From contig OY725503.1 in NCBI GenBank assembly GCA_963281255.1, positions 3,534,001 through 3,598,000 on the forward strand: DNA of 64,000 nt. The letters run 5' to 3'. This DNA comes from Aphrocallistes beatrix. Its lineage: Eukaryota > Porifera > Hexactinellida > Sceptrulophora > Aphrocallistidae. The notes beneath the pieces were generated by a model. It ran no database searches. It saw only the letters and a list, made by a program, of their open reading frames with translations, and had not been told where the DNA came from. Below, piece after piece: positions 2,797 to 56,889 of this stretch; position 1 is the first letter of the stretch, and the number at the start of each line of letters is the position of its first letter. The position numbers and the translations under genes are program-made.

Positions 2797-3702
2797 CTAC
2801 ACTTCAAATATGAGTTTTTCACGGAGAGAATTCCCTTTCAGTTTGCACTCAATCAGGTCATCAATGATCCTATTTTGTTCAGGAGTCAGCACATTCTTCC
2901 ATTCTCCCACAACTCCTTTCCGAATGTGAGCATCATCTTCCTTTTGTCGCGATTTAATTGCAGATCGCATTGTAACATAATCGTTAGCTTTCATTGCTTC
3001 AAAATTAGTTTCTTTCTTAATCAATTCAAACAATTCTTCAGTCATCTTTAAGCCAGTAAATGCAGATAATTCACAGATTTTTTCTTTGAAATTCGTGTGT
3101 AACTCTTCGTACGATAAAGTCAACACGTTGGGATCATCTCTATGTTCCCACCAACCAATGACATGATCGAACCAACTTCCACCCTCTGCATGTCCATTAG
3201 TGTAGATTTCAAAATAGTCATTAAAAGTACCATCATATTCAAATATTTTCTTATCGCAAGTATGATGATAGCAAGATATAACATTATCTTTTGGGTTCCT
3301 GAAACAGTAGATGTATTTAGCTTTAGGGTTCTTGGGAATCAGAAAATGAGGGAGATGGGATTTGAAAATTCGAGGGGCAGGAATGCAGTCTATTTCACTT
3401 CTGAGTGGGAAGTTTCTACCTGGAAGATATTTGTCTGCTTCTTCTCTTGATTCAAAAAATGGAAATTCCATGAAAGGAGATTGTTTATAAATTATATCTT
3501 CAAGTTTTGCTTGAGACTTCATTATTCCCAGTATGTGCTGGAGCCAAGTTGTACCAGATCGAGGATAGGTACATACAAATATGTCGGAGTCTCTTGGTTT
3601 GAATTCAGTCGTGAGTTCTGTTAACCATTCGACATTCGTAAAGGTTGAAAATCTGATTTCCCTAAACAATATGTATTTTGGCATTTGTATATGCTCAGCC
3701 AT
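2797..3702 (-). CDS. Cytosolic sulfotransferase (SULT family), copy B
   Basis: Tandem paralog of the gene at 325-1230, with the same length (301 residues) and collinear motifs: YPRSGTTWL at 46-54, KSHLP with catalytic His116, RNPKD at 135-139 and RKGVVGEWKN at 261-270. Differences cluster at residues 14-25, 68-95 and 146-175. The latter two include regions that line the acceptor pocket in known SULTs, so substrate preference may differ; that is inference. Single exon. A TTATTATTTTAG acceptor-like tract ends 13 nt before the ATG. Duplication extends into both flanks. The catalytic and PAPS motifs are intact, so this looks like a working enzyme. Confidence 0.95.
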   Translation of the reverse strand: MAEHIQMPKYILFREIRFSTFTNVEWLTELTTEFKPRDSDIFVCTYPRSGTTWLQHILGIMKSQAKLEDIIYKQSPFMEFPFFESREEADKYLPGRNFPLRSEIDCIPAPRIFKSHLPHFLIPKNPKAKYIYCFRNPKDNVISCYHHTCDKKIFEYDGTFNDYFEIYTNGHAEGGSWFDHVIGWWEHRDDPNVLTLSYEELHTNFKEKICELSAFTGLKMTEELFELIKKETNFEAMKANDYVTMRSAIKSRQKEDDAHIRKGVVGEWKNVLTPEQNRIIDDLIECKLKGNSLREKLIFEV

Positions 3703-5978: not shown

Positions 5979-8900
5979 ATGACTTCTCGAGATCAGAATT
6001 TTGATAGCACTGCTTCATCAGAAAATTCTGACAACACATCCGTAAACTATCAGACAGATAATGTGATTTCTCCTTATTTGGAATTCTTTAGTTCAAAGCC
6101 TTTCATTCAGTATAAAGAGTTTCTTCAAGCTCGTTTCCTCTACCTGACTGGAGCTAGAGAGTGTGGACACCCTGTTCTCATCGTTGACGTCCACTCCCTC
6201 AAACTATCAGGCCTGCACAACCACCCTAACCTCCAAAAGTTTCTTCGAACTTTCATACGTCTGTGTTCAGGAGAATATATTGATGTTGGGATATTTACGA
6301 TTTTGGATTCGCGAAATGGCGGTACGACGGCTGCTAAATCATTTCTGAATGCAATTAAAAGTGGGAATTTATTTCCTCTCCATGAAGTAATAGTTATAAG
6401 ATCGAAATCGTCAGCTTTTGCGAACAGTCCAAACATGATTGGGGCAGCTAAGGTGAAATATGTCAAAGATTTACCGTCTCTCTCCGCTCATATCCTGCTG
6501 AACAACTTGACTACTTTCCTAGGGGGAGCTCTCAATTTCGATTATGATCACTGGCTTCTAATCATACAATTGTTCCAAGATAATATCGAAAAGACTTCGT
6601 CCCTTATCCGTTCCATGCAAACCCTCATACTCGAGATTGAAAACCTCCACTATGATAGTGAAACCATAATCAACAGGTCGCCCTCCATGATGACACAACA
6701 CTTTGGACAAGTACAGGAACTTACGCATGGATTCATGGACGTGACTTACGGCCTGTCCGAATTTTCAAACTTGTTAGAGAAAATCACTCTGGATCAATCG
6801 CCTATATCTTGTACTCCTGGTTTTTGGGACTTGTTCTGCAAGATTGAGAGTCTGCGGAAGAAAGTGAAAAATGGAGATTCTCACTTTCAGGAAGTGTTCA
6901 GGATCCATCAGGACAAGATGAGGAACTGCGTGAAAGCTTGCGAATTGAAACTTCTTATCCTCTCTGTCAACTCCGATGCCGAGATTGGATTGAAGAATTT
7001 ACACGATTTCAAGGCAAAGATTCCTTTTTCATTTGACGAGGCTCGTCAGTTCGGAGAAGATTTTGAGAAGATTTCGATTGTGATTAACGAAAGGCTTGAA
7101 CATGAAATTCTTGCGATTGAGAGAGAAGTAGAGTACCTCACATCTCGGCAGCTACACTGCGAATATTTTACCAAACATTTCGATGCCCTGAAGAAAAATT
7201 TTGTCGAACTTCAATCTATCATCCATGAGCTATCATCTCAGTTCATGGAATTTACAGATTACTATTGCAGGGCACAGATAGTAGAAGACTGGTGTCAGCA
7301 TTTGAAAGAGATGCTCTCGAATACCTCCTCATCAGAAAATAACTCCAAAAATTACGTCAAGAAACTGAACAAATGGATTCATGATACTCAGACAATGATG
7401 TGTGATCGCATGGCTAAGCAAGCGGATGTCTTATCTGGATCTTATGTGAAGGAGCATCACAAACTACTCAAGGAAGAGGTTGACGCGATTCTGTCCGAGT
7501 TAGAGCAGCGAAGAAATGGAATAGAAGCAGCAATCAAAGCGAGATCTGTGGCAAGCGGGAACTTCTTCGAAAAAATATTGAAACCGTCGACTCGTAGGAA
7601 CGACAAGACTTCTGAGCCCCAATCAAAACTCAGCTTGGAACCAAGTCACCCGACTCAAGCGCAAATCCCGAATATTAGCCCAATGGAGTCCATATCGTCC
7701 CTCACCCTCCTCGCAGGTGATGAAGAAAAGGAGAAAAGAGTGCTGATGCAGCGACAGTTCATCTTCAAAGAGATAATAGAAACGGAACGAACCTACTGCG
7801 AAGACATGAAGTATGTCATCACCAACTTTGTCAACGACAAAAGCGAGAACTGTCCAGACTCTGTGGTTAAGCACGCGACAGTTATATTCAGTAACATTGA
7901 AGAGTTGTACGCCTTTCATAATGATATTTTTCTTGAGGAATTGAGGAAGTTTATTGATGCGCCTCAAAACATAGGAATCTTAATTGTCAAACAGAAGTAC
8001 AACTTCCAATTATATTCCACTTACTGTAAGAATCGACCTCAATGCGAGAACTTCCTCTCCCAACACCCGGAACTGTTAGACTACTTTCAGCAGAGACAAT
8101 TATCCTTCGGCAACAGACTCCCTTTCTTGTCCTACTTGATTAAGCCCATTCAACGCATAACTAAGTACCAACTTCTGCTCCGGGATATGCTCAAGAATTC
8201 GGAGAAGGCGCCTGATGCGCATGCCTATCTTCAAGAAGCCACCGACTGCATGCTCAAAATCCTCAAGAACCTAAACGATACTCTGTACGTGAACGCCATC
8301 AAGCACTTCCCTGGCAATATCCTGGAGCAGGGCCAGCTGTTACACCAGGACGAACTCAAGGTTAAGTTGATGCTCAATAACAAAGCTAAGCTCGGCATCG
8401 GGAAGGTGAGAGCTCAGACTCAGCAAGTGTTTCTGTTCGAGAAGTCAATCGTTTTCACGAAGAAACAGAAACTGTCACAGAACATAAACGACCTTACTCA
8501 TGATCACATTTACCTGTACAAGTCCCACATCATGACGACCGATCTTATTCTACGCGAAAGCTTACAAGGAAATCAATCAGCTTTCGAGGTCATCGTCCAT
8601 AAGCAGAATTGCTCCTACATCCTAGCCGTACAGGATCTGGACACCAAGACGAAATGGCTGCAATCTGTCAACGTGCTGCTCCAAATACAGTTCAGTAAGA
8701 TGCGGGAGCTCGCCATCCACAAGACCGGGGTCACTGGTCCCCAGGGCCTCTCGAAAGCTGTGGTAGAGCACGGAATGGCTAAACTTGAATCTACTCTTAG
8801 CGAAGTGTCTCCTTCTCCTTCTAGATCTATCTCGAGCACGGAAAGCGATGAGAAAAGCACTTCCACCGATGAAACACAGTTTAGGATCAAACACAGATCT

Positions 8901-9347
8901 GCGATTCACCCAAAGTCACGTAAAAACATAAAGAGTTCAAATCTTGTTATGGATTCGTCTCGCCCATCTTCTCTGCTTGCCAGCTCCGTGTCCGATACGC
9001 AAATCACAGCTCCTGCCAAATCGAAACCTGAGTGTGTATCGGATGTCTCTAGCTCAGAAGATGAAAGTAAACTCAGTATTGCCCAGGGCCTGCAGAAACC
9101 GCTCTTCTCAGAAGAAGAGAATCTCCTCGTCGGCTCCTTACGGACCTACCGCATCCAGAAGGACTATAAACCTGACACCTCGAACCCCCATGGCATCAGA
9201 GTCAAGGCGGGCCAGTCAGTGATGGTGCTAGGCCTCCGTCCTAACGGCTTGTGGTGGGTGCGGACATTGCCGCCATCTCCAATGATAGAAGGCTGGTTGC
9301 CTCAAGATGTACTCAATCCTTCCATTTCTCCGGCGCACAAAGTTTAG
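5979..9347 (+). CDS. Dbl-family RhoGEF with Sec14, spectrin, DH, PH and SH3 domains (MCF2L/DBS-like)
   Basis: A guanine nucleotide exchange factor for Rho-type GTPases at membranes. The 1122 residues are encoded by one exon. A CRAL-TRIO/Sec14-like domain spans about 45-190 (VLIVDVHSLKLSG, ILDSRNGG), followed by helical spectrin-like sequence to about 540. The DH domain is about 590-775 (FKEIIETERTYCEDMKYVI, then LIKPIQRITKYQLLLRDML, the conserved CR3 helix). The PH domain is about 775-915. A Ser-rich linker follows, then a C-terminal SH3-like domain at about 1055-1114 with a conserved GLWWVR and GWLP. This order matches DBS/MCF2L; kalirin and Trio are much longer. The ATG follows a strong acceptor-like tract. 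GTPase specificity cannot be read from the sequence. Confidence 0.93.
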   Translation: MTSRDQNFDSTASSENSDNTSVNYQTDNVISPYLEFFSSKPFIQYKEFLQARFLYLTGARECGHPVLIVDVHSLKLSGLHNHPNLQKFLRTFIRLCSGEYIDVGIFTILDSRNGGTTAAKSFLNAIKSGNLFPLHEVIVIRSKSSAFANSPNMIGAAKVKYVKDLPSLSAHILLNNLTTFLGGALNFDYDHWLLIIQLFQDNIEKTSSLIRSMQTLILEIENLHYDSETIINRSPSMMTQHFGQVQELTHGFMDVTYGLSEFSNLLEKITLDQSPISCTPGFWDLFCKIESLRKKVKNGDSHFQEVFRIHQDKMRNCVKACELKLLILSVNSDAEIGLKNLHDFKAKIPFSFDEARQFGEDFEKISIVINERLEHEILAIEREVEYLTSRQLHCEYFTKHFDALKKNFVELQSIIHELSSQFMEFTDYYCRAQIVEDWCQHLKEMLSNTSSSENNSKNYVKKLNKWIHDTQTMMCDRMAKQADVLSGSYVKEHHKLLKEEVDAILSELEQRRNGIEAAIKARSVASGNFFEKILKPSTRRNDKTSEPQSKLSLEPSHPTQAQIPNISPMESISSLTLLAGDEEKEKRVLMQRQFIFKEIIETERTYCEDMKYVITNFVNDKSENCPDSVVKHATVIFSNIEELYAFHNDIFLEELRKFIDAPQNIGILIVKQKYNFQLYSTYCKNRPQCENFLSQHPELLDYFQQRQLSFGNRLPFLSYLIKPIQRITKYQLLLRDMLKNSEKAPDAHAYLQEATDCMLKILKNLNDTLYVNAIKHFPGNILEQGQLLHQDELKVKLMLNNKAKLGIGKVRAQTQQVFLFEKSIVFTKKQKLSQNINDLTHDHIYLYKSHIMTTDLILRESLQGNQSAFEVIVHKQNCSYILAVQDLDTKTKWLQSVNVLLQIQFSKMRELAIHKTGVTGPQGLSKAVVEHGMAKLESTLSEVSPSPSRSISSTESDEKSTSTDETQFRIKHRSAIHPKSRKNIKSSNLVMDSSRPSSLLASSVSDTQITAPAKSKPECVSDVSSSEDESKLSIAQGLQKPLFSEEENLLVGSLRTYRIQKDYKPDTSNPHGIRVKAGQSVMVLGLRPNGLWWVRTLPPSPMIEGWLPQDVLNPSISPAHKV

Positions 9348-10622
9348 CTAATCACGAGTGTTGTATATACTGAAGCTCTCAACTATTTGAATGAATGCTA
9401 CCCCAGTTAGGTAATTATTTTTGTGTATATATAGGTATTTGGCTTGTAAACACTTTGCAATTTATTTTATACGCTTTTTCTTTTAAGATACAATTATATT
9501 CTGCAGCTTGTTATGAATGCAATTAATTCTAAGTTAATTCTGAACTTTGTACTTTCTCTTATTTAAAATGTTATCAATCGTCTGGTGGAGAGGAATTGTT
9601 GGAACTATTTTAATTATTTTCAGGCATTGCATCGAGAGTCCTTTCTTCGCTGTTTTGGTCCCTGTTGAAATAGACAGATTGCGATTGACTGAGGATAATT
9701 CGGTGGAAGGATACAAATATGCAGAGGTATCGTTTGGGAGATATTTTTAATTTGCATCTAAACACTTATCCATGGAGCCTGCATCAGCATTGACAAGCTT
9801 TCTGTATATTATTGCCTCGCAATCTTCAATCGTGAGGATGGAGAATATACCAGCAGACACTTGCACAGAGCTATTCGGTTGATGTATCTGGACTGTGAAT
9901 CGGGAGAATTGGGACATGTCTTTACTTATGCACCGTGGATTGGGCACAAGGGATTATCTAGGAGCGCGAGACGCTTATTTATCGATTTAGGCGTATTAAA
10001 ATTTATGGATTTGAGACTAGGAGCGTATCTCTGGAGGCTGTATACTACCCTGATTTGGCAATGTATGTAGTAAGTGTAATAGACGTCCTACTTCAAGCCA
10101 GTTTACATTAGCGCCAGCAGATGTCTGCTTTGGGTACGAAGTGTTGCCAGTCGCGCAGCGCAAGCGAGCGAGGCACATTCATAGTTTTGTATAGTACATA
10201 GTGTAGTGTAGCATCTTCGTATTTGAACATTTGTTGTATCAACTTTCAAAGTAGCAAACCATAACATCCAAGCAGTCACATCCTGCTGGTGTATGATACT
10301 TTTGTTAACTAATTATAATACGTATAAGAATTCGATTTCCAAAGGAACCCATATAAGTCTATCTTACCATGGATTCCAGATTATTTCTAATATCCTCTCA
10401 ACTCACTGACGGTTTAACAGTGTTAGTTTGCTTCGTTTGTTCTAACAATGGAAGTGAAACAATGATCCATTGCATTGCATCGATAATATATAACTTGACT
10501 GCTTCTGCTTTCAGTATAATACGAGTAACTTTAAGTCACATTCCTAAACTCTCATTTCAGTTTGAAAATTCTGGTAGTAGGTTTCTGTAGTTCAGTAAGT
10601 GTAGCTATTTCCGCAGAAGTTG
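9348..10622. other. Intergenic RhoGEF to vigilin; one doubtful spliced frame
   Basis: The RhoGEF 3' UTR is AT-rich. Two open stretches, 9568-9726 and 9836-10070, could join in phase across a GT-AG interval, but the product resembles nothing I know (see findings). Near 10150-10175 is a short relic of the GCGCAGCGCAAGCGAGCG repeat found elsewhere in the window. The last bases before the vigilin start, TATTTCCGCAG, look like a 3' splice acceptor. Confidence 0.45.
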
Positions 10623-19026: not shown

Positions 19027-19722
19027 ATGTCGGAACTTAAGTTATTCGTGGACATGATCTCACAGCCGTGCAGGGCTGTCTGTCTCTTGCTGGAGATTAA
19101 CAACATTCCTTACACGAAAGAGGTTGTCAACCTGCTCAAGCAGGAGCAGTTAAGTCACGCAGAATTAAAGAGTCTGAATCCTAATGGTAACGTTCCAACC
19201 TTGAAAGAGGGGACATTTTCGCTGTACGAGAGTGGAGCCATCCTCCGATATCTCTGCTCCTCCCGCAAACTACCGGATCACTGGTACCCACAGGAGCTGA
19301 AGACGAGGGCTAAGGTGGACCAGTACCTGGACTGGCACCATTCTACCATCCGGGCTGGATCGACTGGTTGGTTCTTTAACCAATACATCATGAAGAAACC
19401 GGCGACAGATCCGAAGATAGTCGAAAGCAAGAAACTTCTCGCGAAGAGCTTGGGCATCCTAGACGGCCACACTTTGAAGGACAGTGCATTCATAGCAGGA
19501 GACAAGATCTCCATCGCAGACCTTCAGGCATTGAGTGAGTTAGTACAGCACTGGATGGTACAGAAGAATGTGTATGCTGGCTATCCCAATATAGAGAAGT
19601 GGGTGGATGCTTGTCTACAGCAGCTACAACCACATTTTGATGAGGTGCACTCCCTCGTATACACCCTTAGGGACAAACAGGTGTTCGAGGTGGATTCTGA
19701 GCCGCTTAAACCGAAGCAATAG
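19027..19722 (+). CDS. Theta-class glutathione S-transferase 1
   Basis: Conjugates glutathione to electrophiles in the cytosol. The 231-residue length fits theta GSTs. The N-terminal thioredoxin fold carries SQPCRA with catalytic Ser12 (theta enzymes use Ser), the cis-Pro in NVPTLK and the ESGAILRYL glutathione site. The C-terminal helical domain starts RAKVDQYLDWHHSTIR, aligning closely with human GSTT (RARVDEYLAWQHTTLR). FIAGDKISIADLQAL is the conserved folding motif. Single exon. A near-identical gene follows 185 bp downstream on the same strand. Confidence 0.95.
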   Translation: MSELKLFVDMISQPCRAVCLLLEINNIPYTKEVVNLLKQEQLSHAELKSLNPNGNVPTLKEGTFSLYESGAILRYLCSSRKLPDHWYPQELKTRAKVDQYLDWHHSTIRAGSTGWFFNQYIMKKPATDPKIVESKKLLAKSLGILDGHTLKDSAFIAGDKISIADLQALSELVQHWMVQKNVYAGYPNIEKWVDACLQQLQPHFDEVHSLVYTLRDKQVFEVDSEPLKPKQ

Positions 19723-19907: not shown

Positions 19908-20603
19908 ATGTCGGGACTCAAGCTATTCGTTGACATGATCTCTCAGCCGTGTAGAGCCATCTGTCTCCTGCTGGAGATTAACAACATTCCTTACACGAAA
20001 GAGGTTGTCAACCTGGGTAAAGGCCAGCAGTTCACTAACGCAGAACTACAGAGTGTGAATCCTAACTGTAAAGTTCCAACCTTGAAAGAGGGGACATTTT
20101 CGCTGTACGAGAGTGGAGCCATCCTCCGATATCTCTGCTCCTCTCGCAAACTACCGGATCACTGGTACCCACAGGAGCTGAAGACGAGGGCTAAGGTGGA
20201 TCAGTACCTGGACTGGCACCATTCTACCATCCGGTTTGGATCTTCTGGTTGGTTTTTTAGCCAACACATGTTGAAGAAACCGGTAACACATCCTCGGATA
20301 GTCGAGAGCAAAAAGCTTCTAATTAAGAGCTTGGACATTCTAAACGACCACACTTTGAAGGACAGTGAGTTCATAGCAGGAGACAAGATCTCCATCGCAG
20401 ACCTTCAGGCAGTGTGTGAGCTGACACAGCACTGGATGGTACAGAAGAATGTGTATGCTGGCTATCCCAATATAGAGAAGTGGGTGGGTGCTTGTCTGAG
20501 GGAGCTACAACCACAGTTTGATGAGGTGCACGCCCTCTTATACAAGGTTAGGGACAAACAGATATTCGGAGTGGATTCGGAACCGCTTAAATCGAAGTTA
20601 TAA
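19908..20603 (+). CDS. Theta-class glutathione S-transferase 2
   Basis: Tandem paralog of the gene at 19027-19722 with the same length and motifs: Ser12 in SQPCRA, KVPTLK, ESGAILRYL, RAKVDQYLDWHHSTIR and FIAGDKISIADLQAV. Changes are spread over residues 36-50 and 110-150. The second set lies in the helical domain that forms the hydrophobic substrate site, so substrate range may differ (inference). The block TCCATTAGCTGTAGCAC before the ATG is shared with GST 1, so the duplication included promoter-proximal sequence. A poly(A)-signal-like AATAAA lies near 20725. Confidence 0.95.
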   Translation: MSGLKLFVDMISQPCRAICLLLEINNIPYTKEVVNLGKGQQFTNAELQSVNPNCKVPTLKEGTFSLYESGAILRYLCSSRKLPDHWYPQELKTRAKVDQYLDWHHSTIRFGSSGWFFSQHMLKKPVTHPRIVESKKLLIKSLDILNDHTLKDSEFIAGDKISIADLQAVCELTQHWMVQKNVYAGYPNIEKWVGACLRELQPQFDEVHALLYKVRDKQIFGVDSEPLKSKL

Positions 20604-30703: not shown

Positions 30704-33442
30704 TCACTTGGTAGTAGGAGACTCAGGCTTATTGGAGCTTCCACTTAGATTGTGTATCATCGCAGCCAGCTGTTGCATCTTCTCTAGCTGTACTCTTGTC
30801 AGTTTCTGATCTTCCCTCGCAGTTTCCAATGCTGCGCTCTGTTTCAAGTTCTCAGCATGCAATGCATTCACTCTCTCCTGCAGCTGTTCCCTGCCCTTTT
30901 GAGCATTGGATGCCTGTTTCGCTAGAGAGTCCCGCTCTGCGGTTATCTCTGCCAGCTGTCTCTCTATTCGAGACAGCATCGTACCATCCTGTGCTAGTCT
31001 CACTCCCATCTCTTTCAGGTTTTTCTCCTTCTCAACAAGTATCTGTTTGCTCCCGTGTTTCTCTGCTTCGAGTTCTCTCAGCTGCTCCAATAGCCTCGCT
31101 TGCTGGGATTGCAGAGTGTGGAGATTCACTTCCAGCACTTCCTGAGTCTTGCGCATGTTTAGAGAAAGACTAGACTCAGCTTTCAAGTTCTTCTCCAGCT
31201 GTTCGCACTGCTCGCTCCTCTCCATCAGCTCGGCTCGTGTCTGCGAGTATTTCCCTTTTATTCCTTTGAGAGTATTCATGTCTCGGCGAAGAGACTCATT
31301 CTCATCCAACACCTCCTTCTCCCGTTCACTCAGCCGCTTCGATCTCTCCAGCTCCCGACTCAGCTCTGCTTCTAGTGCAGAGAGACTCTTGCTCGCACTC
31401 TGACACTCACTCTCACTCTCAGCGCGCTTGCATCTGAGTTGAGCCACTAGTCTCTCGGACTGCTGCAAGGAGAGGGATTTGGCTTCTAGTAGCGCCTCCA
31501 GCTGGGACACTTTCGTGTCTAGGGTGGAGAGTTTGTACTCGTAGATGTCCACGATGTCTGAATTTCGCATCTCGGAGAGGGAGAGTCCACTCCTCAGCCG
31601 CTCGATCGAGCTCTCCACTGAGTCTGGGCTCAGTTCGATCGGGGGAGACAAGTGATCGGGTGTGCTCTCTCCTGTCCTCCGTTCCAACCATCCCGAGCTG
31701 TGTGTCTCCACCTGATTCCTGAGCTGCTCCATTTGCTCGCTCCGGTTAAGTGAGTCTGAAGCGAGAATATTTCCAAAGTTGGACAGGTGAAAGTTGGGAA
31801 GCTGCAACGCTTCCCTGAGCATCTGCAGGGTCAGTACTGTCTCGTGTCTGGAGGCGTGAGTGAGGGCGTGGGAGAGGTAGGGCAGTACACGGGGGTCCTC
31901 CAGCACGGAGGTGTACGCCTTCTGGTAGCAGGCCTGTGTCCGCTTGAGACAGGCCAGCAGGGACACGGTGGCGAGTAACAGCTGTATGGTCGCTGTCTTC
32001 TCCTCTACCGATCCTTGCTGCTGGATGAGGAAGAGGGAACTGTTCGCGCTGAGAGAGAAGGTGTACAGGTCCAGTAGGAGCTGCTCCGACAGGGAACTTG
32101 AGAGGGAGGAGAGGAGGGGTGCGTGGCGGGACAGGGTGCACATGAGCTGTAGCAGCTTGACTAGCTTGGTGGCGTAGAGATTGGATGCGAGTCCCTCGTG
32201 TTGCTGCCTTTCTGCACGCACACAGTTCTTGGCTACGTTGAGCTGCTTAACTAGCGCTGGGACGAGTTGGGTCGAGAGATGAGGCGGACCAGCCTCCATC
32301 TCGAAAAGTTCCTTCAGGAAATCGAGTGCGAGGAAAACGGTGCTATGGTTGTGTTGCAAGGGCTGCCCCACCCAGTTCAAGAGGTCGGAGAGTCCAGGGG
32401 GGAGTGAATGAGTGGATCTCTTGACTGCGTCACTGGAGTCGAACAAGAATATCCTCACGAGAAGGTAGGCGGGCTTTTCAAACCTGGAGATGGTTAACAG
32501 AAGCCGAATCAGGTCAGAGACACGAGTTCCCTCAGAAACGGACAGCAGAGAGGAGAGGGTGTGAAGGGACTTGAGCAGTGCCCCGTATTTCTCCAGTGCC
32601 TGCTGCACGCGTACTGTCTGAGTGATGCTAGAGAAGAGATCCACTGCCGAACGCACGACCAGTTCTGCTTCCTCCACCGTGTCTGAGGGCTGGGACACCA
32701 GCTTGAAGATGAGCTGGAACGTCTGCTCCACATTCTTCTCACTGAATATCCTCACTCCGAGGTCCTCATTCAGCCAGAGCGAGGAGAGGATGCAGAGAGA
32801 CAGCACGATGACTGCCAGGGACTGGTCCTTCAGACTGGAGATAAGCAGGCGGTTGAGGGCGCCGGAGCTAGACAAACCCTTCAGGTAGGCTTGTACTGAG
32901 AGGTTGGAGTAGGCTAGGTTGGATATTATCTCGAGTGAAGCGGTTCTGTACTCGCCGTGTTTCCCTGAGAGTAGCGCCTGCACCGAGAACTCCAGGATGT
33001 GCTCTGCACAGCCGTTGGGACAGGTGAGGGTGAGTTTGTATGAGAGTGTCTGTAACAGTTTCAGAACTTGCAGCACGTTGGTTTGGTAGATGGGATCAGT
33101 GGATCTCTGGAGGAAGTGTGCCAGATTGGCGACAATACCCTTCTGCAGACACCGTCTCAACACCTCTCTGTCTAGAATCAGATAGTTCAGCACCATCAGG
33201 CACTTGTGCACCAGGTGTGGGGTCCGGAGTCGCCCTTCGATCAGCTGAGTGAGCCCGGACAAGATGACGTCATGCTCGAGGATGACCTGCTTTGATTTGG
33301 TGCTGAGTTGGCGCTGGTTGGTGGAGACGGTGAGAATGAGGTCGAGTTGGTGCTCACATTCCTCCTGGTTCTCTCCACTCGGGTGTCTCTTGTACTGGGC
33401 TAGTTTGGAGGCGAGACCCTGTAGTACTGGACAGAGGTCCAT
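30704..33442 (-). CDS. CIP2A: CIP2A, inhibitor of protein phosphatase 2A
   Basis: CIP2A inhibits PP2A-B56 and, with TOPBP1, tethers broken mitotic chromosomes. The 912-residue length matches human (905). The N-terminal armadillo-like helical part runs to about 560 (LSLCILSSLWLNEDLGVRIFSEKNVEQTFQLIF aligns over its whole length with human). The coiled-coil part starts at about 627 with DIVDIYEYKLSTLDTKVSQL, against human [20 protein letters not shown], and continues ERLVAQLRCKRAESESE. The end AAMIHNLSGSSNK matches human IAMIHSLSGGK. Single exon here. The ATG directly follows an acceptor-like TTAATCTGTCAG and lies 163 bp below the stop of the coiled-coil gene on the same strand. Confidence 0.95.
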   Translation of the reverse strand: MDLCPVLQGLASKLAQYKRHPSGENQEECEHQLDLILTVSTNQRQLSTKSKQVILEHDVILSGLTQLIEGRLRTPHLVHKCLMVLNYLILDREVLRRCLQKGIVANLAHFLQRSTDPIYQTNVLQVLKLLQTLSYKLTLTCPNGCAEHILEFSVQALLSGKHGEYRTASLEIISNLAYSNLSVQAYLKGLSSSGALNRLLISSLKDQSLAVIVLSLCILSSLWLNEDLGVRIFSEKNVEQTFQLIFKLVSQPSDTVEEAELVVRSAVDLFSSITQTVRVQQALEKYGALLKSLHTLSSLLSVSEGTRVSDLIRLLLTISRFEKPAYLLVRIFLFDSSDAVKRSTHSLPPGLSDLLNWVGQPLQHNHSTVFLALDFLKELFEMEAGPPHLSTQLVPALVKQLNVAKNCVRAERQQHEGLASNLYATKLVKLLQLMCTLSRHAPLLSSLSSSLSEQLLLDLYTFSLSANSSLFLIQQQGSVEEKTATIQLLLATVSLLACLKRTQACYQKAYTSVLEDPRVLPYLSHALTHASRHETVLTLQMLREALQLPNFHLSNFGNILASDSLNRSEQMEQLRNQVETHSSGWLERRTGESTPDHLSPPIELSPDSVESSIERLRSGLSLSEMRNSDIVDIYEYKLSTLDTKVSQLEALLEAKSLSLQQSERLVAQLRCKRAESESECQSASKSLSALEAELSRELERSKRLSEREKEVLDENESLRRDMNTLKGIKGKYSQTRAELMERSEQCEQLEKNLKAESSLSLNMRKTQEVLEVNLHTLQSQQARLLEQLRELEAEKHGSKQILVEKEKNLKEMGVRLAQDGTMLSRIERQLAEITAERDSLAKQASNAQKGREQLQERVNALHAENLKQSAALETAREDQKLTRVQLEKMQQLAAMIHNLSGSSNKPESPTTK

Positions 33443-52547: not shown

Positions 52548-53591
52548 ATGTCTATTAATCAAACTCACAAGCGGAAGCGATTGAGAAAAGATAGGATCAC
52601 ATACGGTAAAAGGAAGCAGAAGTTAATAGATGGGAAAATCATAGAACAGTTCTATGAGGTGGGTAGTGAGACTGATGTCAGTATAGACTGTCCATTATTT
52701 GAACTACCACAAAGTCTAGCAGCTCCTCAGGTGGAAGAAACCGCGTTTCAGAAAGACTTCCTTCCGAAACTCTGTCTGCCTCAACTGCTAACATCGAAGG
52801 ACGTAGTGAGTCGAATGGGACAGCTAAACTTTGTGGGAATCAAGTCTGTAACAGAAAAGGTTGAGTCAGAAAACGAAGATCCGTGTTTTATCCGAGAAGA
52901 TGAATCAGTAGGCTTCAAGTGCAGCAAGAGAAAGAGGACGAAAGCGAACAAACGTAAGGCAGTGAGTGACAGCCTCCTGGCCCCTAGTGATAGCGACAGT
53001 AATGATGAGCTGGGCATCGAAACTTCAGCTTCTAGCACTCCCCTTCACTCCCACACCGAAACGAGACTCTATGCTACAGCCAGTAGCAGTCATGCACACC
53101 CACAAGCACAAGCTTTGGGTAGAGAAGCTAGCACACACTTAGATGCAGACGACGAGGAAAGTTGTTTTGAAACGGTTATCTCCGACAGGCATTTATCACA
53201 TGATGTAGAGATGAAGGATTTATCTGTCCAACTAAAGAACAAGGGGAAGAGGAACCTACTCAGGGACCCAGAGCTAGTTAACAGTATTATCACTCAGTTC
53301 GTGGAGAGCACACAAAACCAACTAGCCATCCCCACACGCATTGACAAGTTCGGCTTCAGGATCATCCGCTGTCTCTCTCTGGCTCACGGGGTTAAAGTCA
53401 AACTGTTGGAGCATTGCCATTTCGGCTGGTGCCCCCTGTTGGCAAGAACCGCCCGCACCAGTGTAAGAGACAAGGTCCTGCTAGAGCCGATGCTTAACCT
53501 CCTACGAGAGGAGTCCAGGCAAATAAACCGCCGACAGAAATCTCGTAAAAGCCTGCTACCTGATCCAGCACCCTCCATCTCTACTCAGTGA
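52548..53591 (+). CDS. Basic nuclear-type protein with an R3H-like domain
   Basis: A 347-residue protein, single exon. It starts with a Lys/Arg-rich segment (KRKRLRKDR and KRKQK, about 8-25), followed by an acidic/Ser middle with a second basic patch at about 125-138 (KCSKRKRTKANKRK) that fits a nuclear localization signal. Residues 245-290 (IITQFVESTQNQLAIPTRIDKF then FRIIRCLSLAHGVKVKLLEH) fit the R3H nucleic-acid-binding pattern, though the R-x-x-x-H core is R-I-I-R. No G-patch or helicase motif is seen. I do not recognise the family. It lies 219 bp upstream of the SH2-like gene on the same strand. Confidence 0.7.
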   Translation: MSINQTHKRKRLRKDRITYGKRKQKLIDGKIIEQFYEVGSETDVSIDCPLFELPQSLAAPQVEETAFQKDFLPKLCLPQLLTSKDVVSRMGQLNFVGIKSVTEKVESENEDPCFIREDESVGFKCSKRKRTKANKRKAVSDSLLAPSDSDSNDELGIETSASSTPLHSHTETRLYATASSSHAHPQAQALGREASTHLDADDEESCFETVISDRHLSHDVEMKDLSVQLKNKGKRNLLRDPELVNSIITQFVESTQNQLAIPTRIDKFGFRIIRCLSLAHGVKVKLLEHCHFGWCPLLARTARTSVRDKVLLEPMLNLLREESRQINRRQKSRKSLLPDPAPSISTQ

Positions 53592-53810
53592 CACGTAACA
53601 GCCTGTATATTCTAAGCTAGGACATATTGTATTGTGCCATGCATGCAGAGATTTTGCACTTATTATGTAATCTGATTTGTACTATAGAAGGGTGGTGGCG
53701 GAATTTCAAAACGGGAAGGTGGGATATATGATATTTCCTTTGTTGTACCTCCCTCAACCCCATACATCCGCCACTAATTTGATTTGGGCATCAAAATTAG
53801 TTGTAACTAG

Positions 53811-55919
53811 ATGGCATCCTGTCAGAATCCTGGATTCAAGAAGGATACGACCGCCGTCTACTCGACAGTGAACAAGAACCCCGTTGGGAAGAAGAAGTCC
53901 GGACACAAGCAACAGGTAGAGGACGCGCACAAAGGAGGGCAGAAAGAGTTCGTGATACAGGATTATGAGATGCCGGATATAGGTGGACCCCTGATGGAAG
54001 TGACCCCTTTACCCTTCCAAGACAGCGTCTCCCCCTCTCCCCCTGTGGACACTATCTTCACTAACTTAGATAGCTACCCGCTCGAGGAGCAAATAGACAT
54101 GATATACGCTTCCTCTCGAAAGTTCACACCTCTCTCCGTTAGTCGCAGCACCCCAGCGGTTGCCGGGGGTGGAATGGAGTCGGTCCAAAATTCTAACTCT
54201 GCTTTCGACCGCGCATTCCGAAAGTGGGAGGATAAGATGCAGAAAGGAGGATTGATAGAGAAGACAAACACCATCAGGTCTTGGTCCGATTTCGAGCTGG
54301 TGGTCGGCGAGACGAACCCCCCTCTCCCGCCCAACTTGGACCTCTCACAAAAACGAAACACTTTAGAATTGATTCGGTCCCCTTCCGATGTGACGGAGCG
54401 GCTAGGCAGAGAAATCGCTCTCAATCTGGACAAGTGGTACCTGGATTCGGTCTGTAGTCGGTGGGAAGTGGAACAGCTGTTGTCGGACTCGGATGTGGGT
54501 GCGTTCTGCATCACGAACCCAGATAACAACGGCTTCCTGAACTTGTATCTACGTGTGGATCCCCTCATTCACAACACCAGCCTAGAGCTACACAAGATCG
54601 GGATCCTGTATCGACGCTATAAGATCCGTGAGTCCCCAGAGTACTTCTATTCCCTCTCCTCCCTCCTTACTTACTTCTGCTCCCAGTCTACCACCCTCTC
54701 ATCTGACATCTACCTCTTGTCACCTCAAACTTTTCTGCAGCCAATGATGAGTCCAGGAGCCAAGGTAAAGCTAGAGACCTACCCCTTACCCCTAGAAGAG
54801 AAGGATAAAATTTATTCAAAGGCGAGAGATTTCGCGATAGGACACGAGACTTGGTTAATAGGCGCCTCGAATACGGTAAAGGTGCACGAGCGACTGAATC
54901 GAGATCACACCACTAACTTCCTCATCTGGCACTGTCAGGACACGGCCTCTCCCTACCTCTCCATCTTCTTCGAAGACAACGTCATATTCGAGTGCAAACT
55001 GAAGGGTGGCAGTATGGGCTTCGAGATCCAGGACTGTCCCATCATATTTCCCTCCATCTCTGTCCTACTCAGCTACCTCTCTCTCTTCAACAGCTCCTAC
55101 ATCCCATGTAACATCCGCTACTCCCCACGTGCACTCGGCCTACCCCCTCCCAACTACCACTCACAGAATCTGCTACAGAAGCTGAAGTTGGAGGCGTTTC
55201 TTACGGAGAAGAAGGGCCACTGGTTTCATGAGGTGAAAGATGAGAGTGCGATTACACCTCTGTTACGCTTCAGACATATCGGCTCTTTCCTGGTGACAGT
55301 AAGCGAGACGACTAACTACACTCTATCAATGAGATACTCACTCCAGACTATCTTACATTTCCCCGTCTCGAAGAACAGCTCAGACTATACACTCAAACTA
55401 GGGACCTTCATCGATAGCTACTGCTCTCTGCCCGCCCTGCTAGCTAACAGTCTGCAGTTGGTGAGCGTTAAGCAGGGGAAAGAGAATGTGGTTGTAACGC
55501 AGGATCCGGCCTATCCATTTGTATTCTCGTTCGATGCGAAGAGGCATAAGATCATGAGTCAGATCACGTACAAAAAGGAGGACATGAAGAAACACCTGAG
55601 AGAGACGGAGCCTCTCTGGTTCCGAAACGGAAATCCTCCCGACGACACCAGGACCCTGTTCTTTGTCCCCCTAGCCCTCAGGGGACATTTCATTCTCTTC
55701 AGTAACGAGTCCATCCCCTTTATGACACTCTATCTCCTAACCGAGAAGAAACCACATCTGGTGGTGGAAGAGTGTCTCATCGAATCGAATGCAGAGGGAA
55801 CTATTCTCGCAGGAAAGGGCCCTACCTGTTCCGATCTCATAGAACTCATTTCCTACTGCTGTCTGCACAAGCATGAAGCTCTACCTTTAACTTTGGTGCC
55901 CCCGCTCACTACCAAATAG
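53811..55919 (+). CDS. Protein with four degenerate SH2 domains in tandem
   Basis: A 702-residue, single-exon protein. A basic N-terminus (about 1-50) and Pro/Ser linker are followed by four SH2-like folds at about 207-305, 345-440, 470-555 and 602-700. Each keeps an opening W/H-x-x-x, a G-x-F or F-L-x strand and paired F..SL..LL-type helix. The pTyr-binding Arg of the FLVRES strand is replaced in all: FCIT (Thr235), FLIW (Trp373), FLVT (Thr496) and FILF (Phe630). No kinase, phosphatase or GAP domain. It likely acts as a scaffold by other surfaces. The ATG directly follows TTGTAACTAG. No known family recognised; domain calls are by eye. Confidence 0.75.
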   Translation: MASCQNPGFKKDTTAVYSTVNKNPVGKKKSGHKQQVEDAHKGGQKEFVIQDYEMPDIGGPLMEVTPLPFQDSVSPSPPVDTIFTNLDSYPLEEQIDMIYASSRKFTPLSVSRSTPAVAGGGMESVQNSNSAFDRAFRKWEDKMQKGGLIEKTNTIRSWSDFELVVGETNPPLPPNLDLSQKRNTLELIRSPSDVTERLGREIALNLDKWYLDSVCSRWEVEQLLSDSDVGAFCITNPDNNGFLNLYLRVDPLIHNTSLELHKIGILYRRYKIRESPEYFYSLSSLLTYFCSQSTTLSSDIYLLSPQTFLQPMMSPGAKVKLETYPLPLEEKDKIYSKARDFAIGHETWLIGASNTVKVHERLNRDHTTNFLIWHCQDTASPYLSIFFEDNVIFECKLKGGSMGFEIQDCPIIFPSISVLLSYLSLFNSSYIPCNIRYSPRALGLPPPNYHSQNLLQKLKLEAFLTEKKGHWFHEVKDESAITPLLRFRHIGSFLVTVSETTNYTLSMRYSLQTILHFPVSKNSSDYTLKLGTFIDSYCSLPALLANSLQLVSVKQGKENVVVTQDPAYPFVFSFDAKRHKIMSQITYKKEDMKKHLRETEPLWFRNGNPPDDTRTLFFVPLALRGHFILFSNESIPFMTLYLLTEKKPHLVVEECLIESNAEGTILAGKGPTCSDLIELISYCCLHKHEALPLTLVPPLTTK

Positions 55920-56058: not shown

Positions 56059-56889
56059 TTACAACATGAAAGGCAGGTCATAGTTCTTCTCTCCAGTCCC
56101 GAAATAGAGGTAGCCGTACTTCCTGCTGTTTGGTACATGGAAGGAGGAGAACCCAATCCAATTCAGAGAGCGTAGCACCACCAGACCGCTGCCCCTCTCC
56201 GGCTGTAGGCTCCAGCACCCGAGAGGGATGTCAGCCTCGAGAGTGTCCAAGAAGTCGAAGGCCGGATCTCCGGTGCTGTCCCCTTCTTGTTTCTTGAACT
56301 CGCGCAAGTGTAGGTAGGACGCGAGCTTGGTGGAGTGTCCCTCTGATAGCCCCTCGAAGCACCCATTCACTATCACCTGCTCCAAGGGGGTACGCATTAG
56401 GGCGCCTCTAGGCGCGAGACTGCATTCCTTCTCGATCAACTTGACAACCGCGGCCAGTCGATCCTCTTCCTTCATCTTGAGTGCGCTGGAGGTGTCAGGC
56501 ACCCCGCTGGCCTCCTGGGTGTACAGGGTCTCTGATTGCTCGTAATCAAAGGCTGGGTCACCTGTGAAGCGACCTTTGACCTTTTGTGCCTTTGACAGCA
56601 TCTCAGGGGTCACATGGTTCATGAGTCCCCAGTTCAGAGCGTCCTGAGAGGAGAGATACTTCCTGTCCAGTATCTGATCCCCTCCTATCCCCACGGCTAT
56701 GTAGTAGTTTCGCTTCACACCATGGATTCGACCCCAGAAGCAGACTCGCTGGAACTTATTCTTGCTCTTCTCTAGGATGAGGCTCGTCTGCAGGGACGCC
56801 ATCTCTTCCTGTGATAGGATAGTGCCGCAACCCTCCAGGTAGCCAATGTCGCTCAGTAGCTTGTCAGAATCCATCCACTGCACTAACAA
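56059..56889 (-). CDS. RSPH9: Radial spoke head protein 9
   Basis: Subunit of the radial spoke head that couples the central pair to dyneins in 9+2 motile cilia. About 271 residues from the internal ATG at 56874 (MDSDKLLSDIGYLEG), which matches the start of human RSPH9 (276 residues); the upstream ATG at 56889 adds five residues. The segments FQRVCFWGRIHGVKRNYYIA, VKGRFTGDPAFDYEQ, APRGALMRTP, FDFLDTLEADIPLGCWSLQ, VVLRSLNWIG and the terminal YGYLYFGTGEKNYDLPFML are collinear with human. Single exon, 192 bp downstream of CNPPD1 on the same strand. Confidence 0.97.
   Translation of the reverse strand: MLVQWMDSDKLLSDIGYLEGCGTILSQEEMASLQTSLILEKSKNKFQRVCFWGRIHGVKRNYYIAVGIGGDQILDRKYLSSQDALNWGLMNHVTPEMLSKAQKVKGRFTGDPAFDYEQSETLYTQEASGVPDTSSALKMKEEDRLAAVVKLIEKECSLAPRGALMRTPLEQVIVNGCFEGLSEGHSTKLASYLHLREFKKQEGDSTGDPAFDFLDTLEADIPLGCWSLQPERGSGLVVLRSLNWIGFSSFHVPNSRKYGYLYFGTGEKNYDLPFML

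Follow-up and report, generated by a model that had tools for sequence, protein, structure and literature searches.

A 702-codon open reading frame in the glass sponge Aphrocallistes beatrix raises the question of whether an SH2 domain that has lost its central arginine can be kept, and multiplied, for work other than binding phosphotyrosine. The frame lies in a stretch of 64,000 nucleotides (contig OY725503.1, positions 3,534,001 to 3,598,000; hereafter the window, whose own numbering is used throughout), in a genome of 100.5 megabases and 28 contigs. Phosphotyrosine is bound by nearly all SH2 domains. In the available text of PMC7530234, humans have over 120 SH2 domains, and only three of them lack the arginine of the FLVR motif (position betaB5). 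The initial annotation described four SH2-like domains in a row, each without this arginine, and no catalytic domain. We found that the 702-residue protein does carry four SH2-type domains in order, without a recognised catalytic domain, as supported by a profile from the sponge's own genome, by profile-profile comparison and, for domain 3, by Pfam. The frame and its parts are as follows.

53811..55919, + strand: 702-residue single-exon frame with four SH2-type domains lacking the arginine (reading of the open frame and own-genome SH2 profile)
53811..54407, + strand: N-terminal tail, residues 1-199, with tyrosines 17, 52, 89 and 99 (no Pfam match; hhalign to SH2 0.4%)
54420..54710, + strand: SH2-type domain 1, residues 204-300, alphaA2-like Arg217 kept (profile 19.7 bits; hhalign 95.6%; alignment)
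54513..54515, + strand: codon of Thr235, betaB5 (FLVR) position of domain 1 (SH2 alignment)
54825..55148, + strand: SH2-type domain 2, residues 339-446 (profile 4.8 bits; hhalign 80.3%; AlphaFold2 model)
54927..54929, + strand: codon of Trp373, betaB5 position of domain 2, inside the predicted betaB strand, residues 370-374 (alignment and model)
55206..55463, + strand: SH2-type domain 3, residues 466-551, betaD4-like His516 kept (Pfam SH2; profile 27.7 bits; hhalign 97.5%)
55296..55298, + strand: codon of Thr496, betaB5 position of domain 3, threonine in both paralogs too (alignment)
55611..55895, + strand: SH2-type domain 4, residues 601-695 (profile 6.2 bits; hhalign 95.3%; weak in a PDB search)
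55698..55700, + strand: codon of Phe630, betaB5 position of domain 4 (SH2 alignment)

All four segments match SH2 profiles, which places them in the SH2 superfamily. A profile built from 47 SH2 stretches of loci fetched from the same genome recognised the whole protein at 64.0 bits (expectation value, E, of 9.9e-18 at a nominal 20,000 targets), with matched stretches, in order, at residues 204-300 (19.7 bits), 345-426 (4.8 bits), 466-536 (27.7 bits) and 624-688 (6.2 bits). The real segments scored above every scored shuffle (1,536 to 1,938 of 2,000 shuffles were used for each segment, namely those yielding any score), narrowly so for domain 4, at 11.1 versus a shuffle maximum of 10.3. When each domain was joined with its counterparts in two paralogs, L002 and L003, and compared with SH2 using hhalign, the four positions gave 95.6, 80.3, 97.5 and 95.3%, and the N-terminal tail, as a control, gave 0.4%. 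A pooled profile of domains 1, 2 and 4 and their L002 counterparts, from which domain 3 was left out, found 134 PDB sequence matches at E of 10 or less; each of the 60 matches listed bears the name of an SH2 protein, and p85alpha ranks first (E = 5e-9). Domain 3, searched by position, retrieved SH2 chains from PDB with a best E of 9.6e-6, and phmmer with the whole protein retrieved three SH2 chains only (E = 0.24 to 0.64). The Pfam SH2 family was over its cut-off of 21 in domain 3 only (residues 471-533, 27.6 bits, E = 3.3e-6), and domain 3 cut out alone scored 18.3 bits, below cut-off. No Pfam family other than SH2 was over cut-off in the frame, DUF7063 appearing below cut-off only, and scans with PADLOC and NCBIfam gave no match. 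In the profile searches the protein sided with SH2 rather than with another family, the check that the initial annotation had asked for.

Structure prediction, which had been proposed as a check, was informative for one domain. An AlphaFold2 model of domain 2 reached a mean predicted local distance difference test (pLDDT) score of 59.8, which is moderate confidence, with strands and helices in an SH2-like order. Its structural neighbours were SH2 proteins by name in 50 of the 50 matches listed, and Foldseek returned SH2 proteins in 49 of the 50 matches listed, rank 41 being a ribosomal protein. 

We examined the phosphate pocket by aligning the domains with 47 comparison SH2 domains of the same genome. 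These came from 49 fetched loci, comprising 30 of 72 Pfam SH2 places, 15 regions and four others, after exclusion of hits covering fewer than 56 profile positions, hits with E above 1e-3 and exact duplicates. The Pfam scan of the genome found at least 72 SH2 places; the number is a lower bound because the scan did not list the window protein and so misses domains of this kind. Thr235, Trp373, Thr496 and Phe630 stand where the initial annotation had put them, in the alignment column of the FLVR arginine. In that column the comparison domains have arginine in 45 of 46 cases (47 domains, one gap), a set biased toward arginine-bearing domains by having been picked with an SH2 profile; the sole exception is a tryptophan in the middle SH2 domain of a locus that we call L040. 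The residues of paralog L002 are Ala300, Gln428, Thr558 and Thr713 (L002 numbering), and L003 has the same four. None of the eight domains of the window protein and L002 has the betaB5 arginine that marks a canonical phosphotyrosine binder. The assignment of Trp373 rests on the SH2 alignment and the predicted strand, because the hhalign alignment of domain 2 is out of register near betaB; in the paralogs, the betaB5 residue of domain 2 depends on the register, being Gln428 or within a neighbouring stretch, and neither register places an arginine there.

Other columns of the pocket are depleted as well. The names alphaA2 and betaD4, like all position names except FLVR, are tentative assignments. 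The alphaA2 arginine is present in two of the eight family domains (Arg217 of domain 1, and domain 4 of L002) compared with 36 of 47 comparison domains, and the betaD4 histidine in one (His516, domain 3) compared with 35 of 47; the two never occur together in any of the eight. By contrast, the core columns Trp, Phe and Leu are filled in all eight, compared with 38, 37 and 38 of the 47. As judged from these column counts, the pattern is one of a fold kept and most of a phosphate pocket lost.

The two paralogs, of 784 and 786 amino acids, lie in tandem on contig C10 (frames starting at 2842 and 6410 of L052, C10:3978000-3987999), share the four-domain layout and are 23% identical to the window protein. 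The own-genome SH2 profile scored them at 43.4 and 41.7 bits and detected their first three positions, and Pfam gave matches to SH2_1 below cut-off in their domain 1 (E = 4.9e-4 and 5.3e-4). Protein searches of the genome, each scoring five candidates only, found no further member or broken copy. Membership of a common family was supported by a test in which a profile of three positions recognised the fourth above all 2,000 shuffles in seven of eight cases. The four domains of L002 are mutually similar (shuffle z-scores of 5.5 to 8.5), and domain 1 of the window protein resembles its domains 2 and 3 (z = 4.7 and 3.6). In a tree, a group of seven of the eight family domains is recovered at 83/88 (not starred), and within it the L002 domains form a subgroup at 94/78. 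The window protein's domain 4 falls outside the other seven and is unplaced, the forks are weak, and all eight domains fall on one side of a branch in 14% of 200 bootstrap trees. The simplest history, weakly supported, would be the multiplication of one ancestral domain that already lacked the arginine.

The initial annotation had argued from the full-length frame that the protein is under selection. The frame runs from an ATG at 53811 to a stop at 55917-55919 with no internal stop, directly after an in-frame TAG at 53808-53810, and the remaining five frames across 53811-55919 hold 23 to 45 stops each. In the available text of PMC10282587, intron-free genes are frequent in glass sponges, with 12,409 single-exon transcripts versus 19,578 genes in Aphrocallistes vastus, and that of PMC10280926 gives 1.59 introns per gene for Oopsacas minuta. 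Because intron-free genes are frequent in these animals, a long intron-free frame is unremarkable by itself, and selection is better supported by two full-length paralogs of the same layout at 23% identity than by the open frame, the weaker argument. Constraint between the two recent paralogs, as estimated from their coding sequences, is mild. In DNA, L002 and L003 hardly differ across domains 1 and 2, with a single silent change in the former and none in the latter. They have diverged over the linker and domain 4, where the silent rate (dS) is 0.198, the replacement rate (dN) is 0.122, and 41 replacement changes stand against 17 silent ones. This pattern looks like gene conversion.

Several results weigh against the explanation favoured below. 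Cut out alone, domains 1, 2 and 4 gave no Pfam SH2 match even at E of 10, and domains 2 and 4 taken individually are weak in both profile and PDB searches. When searched against PDB by position, domain 1 retrieved SH2 chains in 15 of 16 rows, weakly (best E = 0.1), domain 4 with its paralog partners retrieved only a weak match to Lck (E = 0.19), and domain 2 with its paralog partner retrieved no PDB sequence. A single-sequence model of residues 196-702 was unusable (pLDDT 32.4). The SH2 profile barely detected domain 4 of either paralog (-0.5 and 0.1 bits), the corresponding domain of the window protein shows little likeness to that of the paralog (z = 1.7), and the remaining four of the six domain pairs within the window protein are no better than shuffles (z of -0.4 to 0.7). 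The one failure in the family test was domain 3 of the window protein, whose score with the profile of its sibling positions was equalled or bettered by three of 2,000 shuffles. Finally, the tandem paralogs have a dN/dS of 0.605 over their whole length and of 0.616 over the linker and domain 4; for domain 3 alone the ratio is 0.286, and for the N-terminal part, on few changes, it is 1.29.

The explanation that we favour, with about even confidence, is that these proteins form a small glass-sponge family made entirely of pseudo-SH2 domains and serve as multivalent, phosphotyrosine-independent scaffolds. An SH2 domain lacking the arginine was probably repeated fourfold, and the array then copied into the paralogs, a sequence of events that we infer from a tree with weak support; the SH2 core would have persisted through the loss of most of the phosphate pocket. 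The groove or surface of each module may hold an unphosphorylated or acidic peptide, much as receptor tails are held by JAK-family SH2 domains, and the N-terminal tail could supply additional docking sites. If so, an SH2 fold can persist, and be multiplied, in a role that does not need phosphotyrosine, and the family would offer eight distinct natural domains, with varied residues at the pocket floor, for learning what an SH2 fold freed from its ligand binds.

The filled core columns in all eight domains would equally suit a structural array or oligomerisation core, in which the SH2 folds pack on each other or on a partner copy and the grooves bind no peptide. Between the matched stretches there are 39 to 87 residues, some of which belong to the domain ends, and such spacing does not demand tight packing; we regard this alternative as rather unlikely. 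Alternatively, the domains could go on binding phosphotyrosine by means of other basic residues. There is a precedent in the C-terminal SH2 domain of p120RasGAP, which coordinates phosphotyrosine with a betaD4 arginine and a betaD6 lysine in the available text of PMC7530234, and an alphaA2-like Arg217 and a betaD4-like His516 are kept in domains 1 and 3. However, no domain of the eight combines an alphaA2 arginine with a betaD4 histidine (betaD6 lies outside the tabulation), the betaB5 arginine is absent from all of them, and the bulky tryptophan of domain 2 and phenylalanine of domain 4 would sit at the pocket floor. We consider retained phosphotyrosine binding improbable.

A decaying array, descended from an ancestor that bound phosphotyrosine and now on its way out under relaxed constraint, would account for the ratios between the tandem paralogs, including the excess of replacement over silent changes in the linker and domain 4, and for the long branches in the tree. 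Decay is harder to reconcile with three stop-free frames of 702, 791 and 793 codons, of which that of the window is only 23% identical to the other two, with core columns that remain filled where pocket columns do not, and with the failure of the genome searches described above to find a broken copy. We judge it quite improbable. That the protein is a divergent member of a known family has a starting point in the literature, since the known SH2 domains without the arginine are held by SPT6, JAK, RIN and SH2D5 in the available text of PMC7530234. Against this, no kinase, FERM, PTB, VPS9 or other non-SH2 domain was over the Pfam cut-off in the 702-residue frame, which has four SH2-type domains compared with one or two in those proteins, and we regard membership of a known family as very remote.

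JAK proteins have the layout FERM-SH2-pseudokinase-kinase. The window protein resembles them in having SH2-type domains, and TYK2 in lacking the betaB5 arginine. Where JAK proteins have a single SH2 domain among others, it has four consecutive ones and nothing else that is recognised; Pfam gave no match besides SH2 and the DUF7063 match below cut-off. In the available text of PMC7530234, the SH2 domains of JAKs hold receptor tails without a need for phosphotyrosine, often with an acidic glutamate in its place, and the betaB5 residue of TYK2 is histidine. SPT6, in the available texts of PMC7530234 and PMC3507883, has a C-terminal SH2 domain without a canonical phospho-site. Its first SH2 domain has the arginine and binds phosphothreonine. 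Like the window protein, SPT6 has SH2 domains in tandem and lacks a canonical site in the last of them; it differs in having two such domains, and here there are four, none with the arginine. SPT6 is an elongation factor with a transcription-factor core upstream of its tandem SH2 domains; no recognised domain lies upstream here, the N-terminal 199 residues having no Pfam match. A separate frame of the genome, in L043, resembles SPT6.

RIN2 and SH2D5 each have a single SH2 domain, accompanied by VPS9/RA or PTB domains, and Pfam showed no VPS9, RA or PTB match here. The betaB5 tryptophan of domain 2 is shared with SH2D5, which, in the available text of PMC7530234, is one of only three human proteins, with RIN2 and TYK2, whose SH2 domain lacks the FLVR arginine. 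The C-terminal SH2 domain of p85alpha was the best PDB match of the pooled profile of domains 1, 2 and 4, and the second among the Foldseek matches listed for the domain 2 model. It is a canonical phosphotyrosine binder, and the match is evidence of shared fold and ancestry, not of function.

The closest likeness within the genome is to L040, which has three SH2 domains in one frame, the middle one with tryptophan at betaB5. By contrast with the window protein, its two other SH2 domains keep the arginine, and the SH2 domains follow a stretch of about 280 residues.

L040, C11:1646500-1652500: 665-codon frame from 1571 (C11:1648070-1650064); Pfam SH2, DUF7145 and DUF7063 only

To the eye, this N-terminal stretch of about 280 residues has some likeness to a caspase-like fold; the Pfam matches of the L040 protein are confined to SH2, DUF7145 and DUF7063. 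Another locus, L041 (C9:258500-263000, - strand), has a 558-codon frame with two SH2 domains and an N-terminal region that by eye is like that of L040, and the two are perhaps a second multi-SH2 family of the sponge.

The initial annotation had called the protein undescribed. Among the titles and starts of abstracts listed by searches of open-licence literature on SH2 domains or glass-sponge genomes, none concerns a protein of several SH2 domains lacking the arginine, and 'SH2' does not occur in the available main text of two glass-sponge genome papers (PMC10280926, PMC10282587). Two sequence collections yielded no relative: 50 pattern matches in viral_contigs and 133 in genome_contigs gave none that was confirmed. 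The literature is consistent with the claim, and the collections add little weight because they are viral and prokaryotic and the patterns came from the poorly aligned N-terminal part. The broader proposition, that an SH2 domain already without phosphotyrosine recognition was multiplied in glass sponges into a four-module, phosphorylation-independent array with no described counterpart in other animals, is one that we put forward tentatively, as possible and open to real doubt.

A single F-x3-F-x2-W stretch is present in the window protein, at 132 in its tail, and another in the paralog, at 72. We rejected it as a shared motif: the two N-terminal regions match each other no better than shuffled sequences do, with no significant similarity between the tail and the N-terminus of the paralog (110 of 500 shuffles reach the score).

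The neighbours of the frame are a 347-residue frame upstream (52548-53591, + strand), without a Pfam match, and a convergent radial-spoke-head gene downstream (56059-56889, - strand; PF04712, E = 1e-14). The scanned frames of the window include ordinary animal genes, among them vigilin-type KH repeats, a sestrin, a rabaptin-like protein and an ABC transporter, and a single-exon 912-residue frame at 30704-33442 (- strand) matches the N-terminal part of CIP2A in Pfam (E = 2.9e-38). Two pairs of frames are of equal length, 325-1230 and 2797-3702 (both - strand) and 19027-19722 and 19908-20603 (both + strand). The first members, the only ones scanned, are a sulfotransferase and a glutathione S-transferase, respectively, and the second members are probably tandem duplicates.

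In the mitochondrial contig (17,996 bases), TGA is read as tryptophan, and AGA stands at positions of COX1 and COB where serine is probably conserved. An atp9-like frame is also present. The cox3 gene is apparently split over two reading frames (L038, about 8806-9590). In the available text of PMC2267718, the reassignment of AGR to serine was common to the three glass sponges then known and not seen in demosponges, and atp9 was retained. On these mitochondrial features the organism would be placed among the glass sponges (Hexactinellida). A split cox3 is to be expected, because the same text reports programmed frameshifting in the mitochondrial DNA of glass sponges (PMC2267718).
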